Of a stretch of 64,000 bases of DNA, positions 44,744 through 48,010 are shown piece after piece. Position 1 is the stretch's first letter; each line of letters opens with the position of its first letter. The stretch spans positions 1 through 64,000 of the forward strand of contig CAMOPX010000008.1 of assembly GCA_946622415.1 (NCBI GenBank), written 5' to 3'. The stretch is from an uncultured bacterium. GTDB lineage: Bacteria > Cyanobacteriota > Vampirovibrionia > Gastranaerophilales > Gastranaerophilaceae. The notes under the pieces were generated by a model. It was not told where the DNA came from, made no database searches, and worked only from the letters and a program-made list of their open reading frames with translations. A program made the position numbers and the translations under genes.

Positions 44744-46411
44744 ATGTTAGAGAGTAAAACAGTTCCCCAAAAAAGAAAAGACGATACCAATATGACAAAC
44801 GCACAAGAAACAATGCAAAAAGCGACTTTCGCTCATCAAAGATATTTGCTGAAAGCAAATAATGACGATTTAGCATCGGCAATAAACGGCTATATTGAAA
44901 CAATAAGCCAGAATCCGTCAGAAACGAGTGCATACTACAGGCTTGCGACCTTATTACATAAAAACGGACAAATTGGAATCGACAGTGCGATTGACCAATG
45001 CAGAAAAGCTGTCAAATTAAGCCCTAAAGATGCTAACGCTCATATTTATTTGGGGTATTTTCTATCGTTAAATTCAAATTTTGATGAAGCTAAATCCGAG
45101 TTTGAAACAGCAATAAAACTCAAACCGGCTTCAGCAAGAACCCGCCTTGTGCTAGCTTTAACAATGCTTGAAAAAATTAAAAAACAAGCTAGCGGAAAAA
45201 CAATAAAAGATTACACAAATGCACTCTACTATGGTTTGAGTGGTGCTATAATGAGCTTTTTTGATAAAACCAGTATCAAAATGGTTTGTCAAAATTTAGC
45301 GGATGATTTCAATTTTGCAAAATATAAAACCGTGGGTGCGATTTTAGAAAAGGTAAATTCAGAAAAACAAGCATACAATTTATATTTGAGTGCAGTTGAT
45401 AATTCAAGAAAATCTATTGCTTTGTATGAAAGAATGGCAAGAATTGCAATAAAGAAAAATCGTCCCGATATTGCTTTTGATTGCTTAAATAACGTTGTAA
45501 TTTTGTCAAACAACGATCCCATGAAGGTTGCAAATGCAATTGAATTTGTGGAAGAATACCAAAACGATAAAGTTGATACATTAATTGATTATTATACGAT
45601 TCTTGTTAATAAATATCCGGAATTTTCAAAATGCTATTATGAATTGGGTCATTTATATATAAAGAAAGATGAAAAAATAAATGCATTATCTGCATTTAAG
45701 CTTGCTTTAAAATATGATGAAAATAACCCGTATTATCAAAATTCTTTAGCCTATGCGTATGTTCAATTAGAACAATATGATAATGCAATTGAATTATATA
45801 AAAAAGCATTGGAAGCTAACCCTAATGACGAATGGTCTGCAGTTGTTGCGCAGGCTTTGGCGGCAATTTATCATCAGGTAAAGGGAAATTCCGAAGCTGC
45901 AATATCAATGCTTGAAAATAGCTTGCTTTTAACAAAAAATAAATCTCAAATCCATGAAGCAATAGCAGACATATATTACGATATTGAAAATATAGATAGT
46001 GCTATCGAATACTACCAAATGGCACTCGATGAAGATAATGACAATCCGAAAATATATTCCCGTCTTGCAATGGCATTTTGGGAAAAGGATTGTATTGAAA
46101 AAGCAATAATATATTATTCAAAAGCAATAGAATTAGATTCAAGCTATGATATTGCATATAACAATTTAGGCGTTGTATTCCTTGATGGTCTGGGGGATGC
46201 ATCGAGAGCAATCGAATATTTCAGAACGGCAACTGAAATAAATCCAAATTATGTTTTGGCTCATTTCAATATGGCAAGAAGCCATGAAGCAATGGGAGAA
46301 AAGATTGCTGCTGCAAAACAGTACCAAAAAGCATTGAACATTAACAGGCAAACAAATGAATTAGATTTCAAATTGATTGAAGATAGACTCTACAAACTCT
46401 TTGAAACATAA
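44744..46411 (+). CDS. TPR-repeat protein
   Basis: Many TPRs, e.g. NALSAFKLALKYDENNPYYQNSLAYAYVQLEQYDNAIELYKKALEANPND. Confidence 0.93.
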   Translation: MLESKTVPQKRKDDTNMTNAQETMQKATFAHQRYLLKANNDDLASAINGYIETISQNPSETSAYYRLATLLHKNGQIGIDSAIDQCRKAVKLSPKDANAHIYLGYFLSLNSNFDEAKSEFETAIKLKPASARTRLVLALTMLEKIKKQASGKTIKDYTNALYYGLSGAIMSFFDKTSIKMVCQNLADDFNFAKYKTVGAILEKVNSEKQAYNLYLSAVDNSRKSIALYERMARIAIKKNRPDIAFDCLNNVVILSNNDPMKVANAIEFVEEYQNDKVDTLIDYYTILVNKYPEFSKCYYELGHLYIKKDEKINALSAFKLALKYDENNPYYQNSLAYAYVQLEQYDNAIELYKKALEANPNDEWSAVVAQALAAIYHQVKGNSEAAISMLENSLLLTKNKSQIHEAIADIYYDIENIDSAIEYYQMALDEDNDNPKIYSRLAMAFWEKDCIEKAIIYYSKAIELDSSYDIAYNNLGVVFLDGLGDASRAIEYFRTATEINPNYVLAHFNMARSHEAMGEKIAAAKQYQKALNINRQTNELDFKLIEDRLYKLFET

Positions 46412-46414
46412 CAA

Positions 46415-46921
46415 CCCGAATGCAGTGAGGCGTAGTCCGACGGACTAGCCGAACAAAATGAGGGCAGAAGTGTGCGAAGTGCGCAACGGGAAAGCGGTGA
46501 GCTTTGCCGCTAGCACGAAGCCGTACCAATGCGACGTGAGCCGCAGGCTCTCAGGAGCAAACCCGAATCTGCACTTGTTTAGTGCGCAAGCACTTAACAA
46601 GTGCAGATTCGGGCAGAAGAATGTGAAGCACGCACTCGGTTGCGATGAGCAAGCGAGAAGTGCGTAACTGGACTCAGGCGACGTGGAAATTTCTAATTTC
46701 CACAGGAGCAAACCCGAGTCAAACGAGTTTAGTGCGTAAGCACTTAACGAGTGCAGACGAAGGCATCGGGTGTGAGAAGCCCGAACGGATTTGCGATGAG
46801 CAAAGCCGACAGGGCGGAACCGTACCAATGCGACGTGGAAATTTCTAATTTCCACAGGAGCAAACCCGAGTCAAACGAGTTTAGTGCGTAAGCACTTAAC
46901 GAGTGCAGACGAAGGCAAACA
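46415..46921 (+). repeat. Modular hairpin-rich repeat array between two TPR genes
   Basis: Identical 88-bp direct repeats 46678..46765 and 46830..46917, a diverged third unit from 46521, and at least five inverted repeats; composition is visibly less AT-rich than flanks. Confidence 0.9.
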
Positions 46922-46945: not shown

Positions 46946-48010
46946 ATGAGCAGATTAAAAAGAATATTTGAATCAACATTAGCCAGAGCAATAAGTGCCA
47001 CTCTTATTGTTTCTTTTGCATTAAGCATTTTTTTGTTTTTTGATTTTTATGAAAGAAAAGTAAATGAAGTTATAGGATATTATCTTGTATATAAAGGTGA
47101 TAAAGCGTTTAAGAAGCACGATTTACAGGAAGCAATTTATTATTACGAAAAAGGTATTGTTTATCACCCCCGCCACTATAGAGCAATGTATAATCTTGCC
47201 AATATTTATGTGGTTTATGAGGATTATTATTCCGCATTAAAAAACTACGAAAAGGCATTAAAAGTAAAGCCTGATTATGAAATCGCAAGAATAGATTATG
47301 CAATAATACTATCGGAAACCTATAAAACAGATGAAGCAATTGAAGAATATAAAAAGGTAATAGAAAACATTCCGAAATTTTATAAAATTCCCTTTATTGT
47401 GGATAAAGAAAAATCTTATTACCATAATAAAGGTGTTGCATATTATAATATGGGTGTTGCCTACAGAACAAAATCGCTTCTTGCGGGGTTAGATGATACA
47501 ATCAGCAGAAATTATATGAAAGAAGCATCATCTTCTTATGAAAAAGCGGTTGATATTTTGAATAACTATAATGCCAATTACAATATGGCTTTGATAAATC
47601 AACTCTTAAAAAACAAAAATCAAGCCGGATACTATTATTGTAAAGCTATGGAAGTAGGCCCTTTAGAATATGAAGCTCATTTTAATTATGCAATATTATT
47701 AAACGATTTAAAACAGTATGACGGTGCTGCGGAAGAATTTAAAAAAGCGGGCATGCTGCTTGATACTGCCGGTGATTCAAATAAAAGCCGTTATATCTAT
47801 GGGATTTTAAGTGAAGTCAATGAAAGAATAGCAATAAACAGTGACAAAGAATACTACAAAAAATTGGCGGCGCAAGAAGAAAAAAATTTGAATTTAAGAT
47901 ATAAAGCGGGAAAAGTTGTTTTTGATGCCGAGGATAAAAAAACAGACAGCTTTTTGGAAGACTTTAAAACTTGTGCAAAAAAAGAGCTGTTCGCGGGGGG
48001 TAAAAAATAG
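46946..48010 (+). CDS. TPR protein with N-terminal membrane anchor
   Basis: N-terminal TM, ALKNYEKALKVKPDYEIARIDYAIIL and further TPRs. Confidence 0.88.
   Translation: MSRLKRIFESTLARAISATLIVSFALSIFLFFDFYERKVNEVIGYYLVYKGDKAFKKHDLQEAIYYYEKGIVYHPRHYRAMYNLANIYVVYEDYYSALKNYEKALKVKPDYEIARIDYAIILSETYKTDEAIEEYKKVIENIPKFYKIPFIVDKEKSYYHNKGVAYYNMGVAYRTKSLLAGLDDTISRNYMKEASSSYEKAVDILNNYNANYNMALINQLLKNKNQAGYYYCKAMEVGPLEYEAHFNYAILLNDLKQYDGAAEEFKKAGMLLDTAGDSNKSRYIYGILSEVNERIAINSDKEYYKKLAAQEEKNLNLRYKAGKVVFDAEDKKTDSFLEDFKTCAKKELFAGGKK

Follow-up and report, generated by a model that had tools for sequence, protein, structure and literature searches.

The hairpin array described here belongs to an interspersed repeat family confined, among the genomes sampled from the phylum, to a single bacterial lineage, the order Gastranaerophilales, whose members have been gained repeatedly and also lie within RNase P RNA and tRNA genes. 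We propose that this family is a lineage-specific, non-autonomous mobile repeat built of A, B and C hairpin modules and spread by hairpin-associated copying in transcribed regions, an explanation we consider as likely to prove wrong as right. The array was found in a 64,000-nucleotide stretch of DNA (the window), where it fills about 500 bases (46415-46917) of the intergenic space between two genes assigned by Pfam to TPR proteins. Its modules follow the order A1-B1-C1-A2-B2-C2-A3-B3-C3-A4, giving four A, three B and three C modules with a period of ~150 nt (Table 1). GC content was ~0.50-0.54 within the array compared to ~0.30-0.34 in its surroundings, and both strands folded far better than shuffled sequences (z -9.65 and -8.30). 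The minus strand of the array holds a 136-aa open frame (46445-46855), which is a by-product of the repeats and not a gene.

Table 1. Modules of the array and the two genes beside it, with positions in the window
Feature	Position	Strand	Description
Upstream TPR gene	44744..46411	+	ORF, Pfam TPR; TAA stop 3 nt before the array
Module A1	46415..46466	+	Helix with tandem GA.GA internal loops, inner stem AGTCC/GGACT; from sequence and the same module at other loci
Module B1	46468..46527	+	Outer helix, stem GTGC/GCAC, inner stem with GNYGA pentaloop, GTACC end; match to covariance model R1, E 1.0e-13
Module C1	46530..46559	+	Scaffold TGCGACGT...CAGGAGCA with hairpin GAGCC-GCA-GGCTC
Module A2	46562..46613	+	Near-perfect 24-bp palindrome; inverted repeat I1, 96% complementary
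Module B2	46617..46674	+	GCAC/GTGC, CTCG/CGAG, GATGA loop; R1 match at L001 1707-1764
Module C2	46678..46710	+	Scaffold with hairpin GTGGAAATTTCTAATTTCCAC
Module A3	46713..46765	+	Identical to A4 over 53 nt
Module B3	46767..46826	+	GCCC/GGGC, GATGA loop; R1 match at L001 1858-1916
Module C3	46829..46862	+	Scaffold with hairpin GTGGAAATTTCTAATTTCCAC
Module A4	46865..46917	+	Partial, final unit of the array
Downstream TPR gene	46946..48010	+	ORF, Pfam TPR; start codon 28 nt past the array

A sequence-only reading had described this block as a fixed scaffold holding exchangeable hairpins, less AT-rich than its surroundings and located between two TPR genes. Composition and location both held, as did the three hairpins, GAGCC-GCA-GGCTC at 46538-46550 and GTGGAAATTTCTAATTTCCAC at 46683-46703 and 46835-46855. 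The claim of a fixed scaffold held in part: the full CCGTACCAATGCGACGT is present at two sites only (46521 and 46820; chance mean 0.04) and is replaced by CTGGACTCAGGCGACGT in the middle copy, so that the strictly fixed scaffold is GCGACGT...CAGGAGCA. The conserved boxes that had been pointed out were confirmed, with TTTAGTGC-GYAA-GCACTTAA found three times (chance 0.01) and AGGAGCAAACCCGA in three exact copies. The description was nevertheless incomplete, the actual ten-module architecture being larger. Its further claim, that stems change while complementarity is kept, held across the genus, as shown by covariation in module B and by the interiors of module C.

Module A is a helix interrupted by two tandem GA.GA internal loops, followed by an inner stem and a short loop; partner positions read by eye at other loci covary (GT/AC, AT/AT, AC/GT). 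A kink-turn identity for the GA motifs was rejected by eye, as the 3-nt bulge beside the GA pairs is absent. Module B consists of an outer helix, a variable stem (GCCC/GGGC, GCAC/GTGC, GTGC/GCAC, GCATT/AATGC or GAGC/GCTC) and, capped by a GNYGA loop, an inner stem. Across 35 sequences its covariation score was 0.626 compared to 0.164 for shuffled alignments, with 141 cells carrying double changes, and neither value was reached in any of 500 shuffles; an alignment of 120 distinct rows, fitted to the model, gave 443 double-change cells (0/500 shuffles). The module C scaffold, GCGACG...CAGGAG, holds 53 distinct hairpin interiors, 96% of which are self-complementary beyond shuffles (z below -1). 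Terminal loops and tandem G.A internal loops are thus the parts that are conserved while the stems vary. The core stems contained only 5 G.U and 2 A.C among 1075 cells (G.U 0.5%), compared to 110 G.U among 1266 cells (8.7%) in tRNAs at the same loci. Such near-absence of G.U is unlike RNA stems drifting through G.U steps, and complementarity appears to be maintained at the level of DNA.

The genome carrying the window (1.88 Mb, 50 contigs, 92% complete) contains 29 BLAST places matching the array and 72 when a composite module query was used. Several copies sit at contig ends, which accounts for part of the fragmentation of this assembly. Relatives of the array were found in 21 of 28 genomes of the genus, some members having few or no copies, and the named public records that match it are Candidatus Gastranaerophilales bins. 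With the covariance model, module B was detected in 59 of 289 Gastranaerophilales genomes, spanning 24 of 50 genera, and in none of the genomes sampled outside the order (388 phylum genomes); counts per genome are at least those given by the model. Rfam 15 returned no family above its gathering cut-off for the modules, matching only their tRNA, tmRNA and RNase P hosts, and no account of such repeats in Gastranaerophilales was found in the literature searched. Dozens of copies, covariation, empty sites and the lack of an Rfam match together support the earlier suggestion of an undescribed repeat family whose structure is selected or maintained. That suggestion was to be given up if copies were few, if covariation was lacking or if the block was a chimera; all three were checked and none refuted it.

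Loci were compared as DNA stretches around the arrays and not as whole-genome sequence. The window site is occupied in 2 of 27 genomes and bare in at least 24 sisters, where the spacer is 20-60 nt, demonstrating that the array was inserted; at this stop codon, genome G002 carries another array, which differs from it and is shorter. The rpsH-rplF site is occupied in 11 of 27 genomes with differing module content at the same spot, and four gains at the rpsH stop were inferred on a two-protein tree. Arrays were also observed at lysS, flgC, groES/groEL, tuf and a LuxR-type gene (named by eye from translated ends), directly after the T runs of intrinsic terminators and, in four genomes, at the 3' end of tmRNA; tRNA-Pro, tRNA-Lys, tRNA-Thr and tRNA-Met genes carry them in their 5' part. 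A single A-B unit distinguishes the tRNA-Met sites of G012 and G015, indicating that units are gained or lost in place. Strict targeting of stop codons was weakened as a candidate: the empty rpsH spacer is only 7-20 nt, so adjacency to the stop codon is partly forced. Separately, the rpsH-rplF spacer (e.g. loci L267 and L256) holds a GGGTTAAATCG...CGATGCGTTCCCGC element conserved before rplF in the genus genomes inspected; it has no Rfam match and is perhaps a ribosomal-protein leader.

Arrays also occur inside rnpB, in P3 in about a dozen genomes of the genus and in P12 in seven, at positions where the remaining genomes have short native hairpins. Infernal retained full-length class A RNase P matches and placed the inserts in the P12 loop. 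All 13 module B matches within rnpB lie on its sense strand, many of them inherited and therefore not 13 independent events. One bin, G007 (L280, L304), has two rnpB genes, one of them nearly identical to that of G012, and is probably contaminated.

Inserts in RNA genes are flanked by exact direct repeats of 33 nt at tRNA-Pro, 31 and 37 nt at tRNA-Lys in two species, 35 nt at tRNA-Thr, 23 nt at tRNA-Met and 35 nt at rnpB P12, and the copy nearest the intact gene restores that gene. Repeats of 40 and 29 nt surround the rpsH inserts of two species (G005/G006); the repeated stretch there is itself module sequence, and apart from it no target-site duplication was seen at the rpsH flanks. No long flanking duplication is present at the window site. 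Since the first break of the inserts falls in or near a hairpin loop (the tRNA D arm or the module B loop), switching at hairpins is favoured, though tandem duplication of a larger unit remains possible as the source of the direct repeats.

Orientation was scored at 73 loci. The arrays are sense to the upstream gene at 49 and antisense at 21, while for the downstream gene the counts are 30 and 27, showing that orientation is set by the upstream transcript. At 9 or more of the 21 upstream-antisense loci, a sense tRNA, tmRNA or terminator lies directly upstream. A replication-strand bias is an unlikely source of the sense orientation, which tracks the upstream and not the downstream gene. The sense bias points to a process or selection acting on RNA and the G.U deficit to the level of DNA; this is the main conflict left unexplained.

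In the explanation we propose, the conserved part of the element would be its internal and terminal loops, with intervening stems freely replaced yet kept complementary. Gains would occur where transcription units end (stop codons, terminators, the tmRNA 3' end), at the P3 and P12 hairpins of RNase P RNA and in the 5' parts of tRNAs, the arrays running sense with the host transcript and growing by tandem duplication of units. Copying may proceed by a template switch at a hairpin, in which synthesis reaches the loop, a donor module is copied, and synthesis resumes upstream; such a switch would leave the 23-37 nt direct repeats seen at RNA-gene inserts and keep the stems perfectly Watson-Crick. 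Because each module folds by itself, a spacer or the loop of a functional RNA could accommodate it with function intact, and the default role would be that of a tolerated selfish element. The family, its covariation, the empty sites, repeated gains, sense bias, RNase P and tRNA locations and direct repeats are shown, while template switching and neutrality are inferred and the copying machinery is unidentified. Against this explanation, no copying enzyme was found, transposition was not observed, and template switching alone fails to account for an orientation that follows transcription. The same sites are retained in several species, leaving room for a possible function. A bolder reading, which we lean slightly against, is that the family represents a new class of mobile element whose conserved part is a set of non-Watson-Crick loop motifs. 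Its stems would be renewed by hairpin copying that uses a DNA or RNA template and is coupled to transcription, and as self-folding modules it would regularly insert into essential non-coding RNAs (RNase P P3/P12, tRNA loci).

Other explanations fared less well. Selection might keep the modules as a functional RNA array that works at the transcript level; they could, for instance, provide binding sites for RNase III or proteins, or shield mRNA 3' ends between cistrons. Conserved loops with varying helices are a functional-RNA pattern, and covariation, sense orientation and presence in ribosomal-protein, groES/groEL, tuf and flagellar operons agree with it. However, occupancy is patchy at the window and rpsH sites, many sites are empty, some genus members have few or no copies, arrays also lie past intrinsic terminators, G.U is nearly absent and no Rfam family matches, making this account unlikely. 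Less likely still is mobility at the RNA level, in which a transcript acquires module RNA, by joining or insertion, and the product is reverse-copied to DNA, so that copies are sense by construction. The bias linked to the upstream but not the downstream gene, the 13/13 sense matches in rnpB and insertion at RNA 3' ends and hairpin loops speak for it; the G.U deficit speaks against it. RVT_1 reverse transcriptase, the gene expected for a reverse-transcribed element such as a group II intron or retron, was absent from the window's own genome and from the array-rich G012, G015, G020 and G024, and its presence did not correlate with arrays in the genus.

Mobilization by a DNA transposase acting in trans, as for a typical MITE or REP-like element, is in our view similarly improbable. 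The repeats are short, non-coding, palindromic and interspersed, and sister sites are empty, but there are no fixed ends or terminal inverted repeat, and duplications are usually much shorter than the 23-37 nt seen here. Arrays mostly begin with CCCGA or CCTGA and their ends fall in different modules, without constant termini. Y1/RAYT (PF01797), the sole transposase family searched, was not found in the 92% complete genome, with positive controls. An assembly artefact or metagenome-bin chimera, to which copies at several contig ends might point, can be almost ruled out: sister species that lack the array have the two flanking genes side by side, and the family occurs in many independent bins and in named public records. 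Phage carriage was rejected, with zero viral contigs by the two patterns searched, as was a CRISPR array, all modules being repeats with no spacer content. The three identities named in the sequence-only reading do not have equal support. The best fit is a non-autonomous mobile element whose fold is RNA-like; a protein-binding palindromic array, named third, remains conceivable.

The closest likeness may be sought among known small palindromic mobile repeats. Rickettsia palindromic elements (RPEs) are reported to lie in the rnpB (M1 RNA) and tmRNA genes (PMC2229807, citing Ogata 2002), as the present modules lie in rnpB P3 and P12; however, RPEs are best known as in-frame protein inserts, and the literature consulted mentions for them neither A-B-C modules nor exchangeable stems nor long repeats at their flanks. 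REP/BIME elements are intergenic, mostly downstream of genes, and form hairpins in mosaics with a possible RNA role (PMC3733652). Their units of 20-40 bp are tagged GTAG or CGTC and usually form inverted pairs, the GTAG families being tied to RAYT, whereas the present units run head to tail in one orientation in a genome without RAYT. We found no conserved terminal GTAG, and CGTC only antisense of scaffold 1, within a paired region, and missing from scaffold 2. The argument for an RNA role of REP/BIME from frequent G.T does not apply here. Cyanobacterial small dispersed repeats and STRRs, reportedly 20-30 nt or heptamers and also present in rnpB (Elhai 2008; Vioque 1997), are likewise very small mobile repeats, in a sister lineage, but the present units are modular, ~150 nt long and have covarying stems. 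The hairpin elements of sponge mitochondrial DNA (RHE) are GC-rich mobile hairpins in AT-rich genomes with conserved stems and varying loops (PMC2800124); here the conservation is reversed. Neisseria NIME/dRS3 and pneumococcal BOX elements are mosaics of fixed and exchangeable modules, and to our knowledge show neither inserts in RNA genes nor stem exchange. What sets this family apart among small palindromic mobile repeats is its unusual modularity, its exchange of stems and the long repeats at its flanks, together with the presence of its modules within RNase P RNA and tRNA 5' parts, at stop codons, and after tmRNA and terminators.

By what means small palindromic repeats spread when they have no enzyme of their own is a long-standing question, and this family offers natural experiments, in which the same sites are empty or filled in close relatives, inserts are bounded by long direct repeats and some inserts lie in an essential ribozyme. 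That sense-only orientation should coexist with a near lack of G.U is a tension open to direct testing. The family is also relevant to the way RNase P RNA gains its peripheral helices and to the breaks at repeats in bins of this gut order.

Two further repeats were observed. A different repeat of ~300 bp, with several copies at contig ends, occurs in the window's own genome (L084, L086, L087, L089 and L094, on contigs C40, C30, C16, C14 and C4); in it, a long inverted repeat around TTCGGTTCACTTTTTTCTTTTG comes after a module D, which has an ATTTTGC...GCAAAAT junction and swapped inner stems. Lastly, a further scaffold, CTCTGCCGA[hairpin]GAGAGG, exchanges its hairpins at L003 (1150-1245), L027, L090 and downstream of tRNA-Lys in L133/L135/L151; it often lies beside tRNA 3' ends, and in L097 it is flanked by repeated TCACCGGACCCAATTTTTATTTTTTA.
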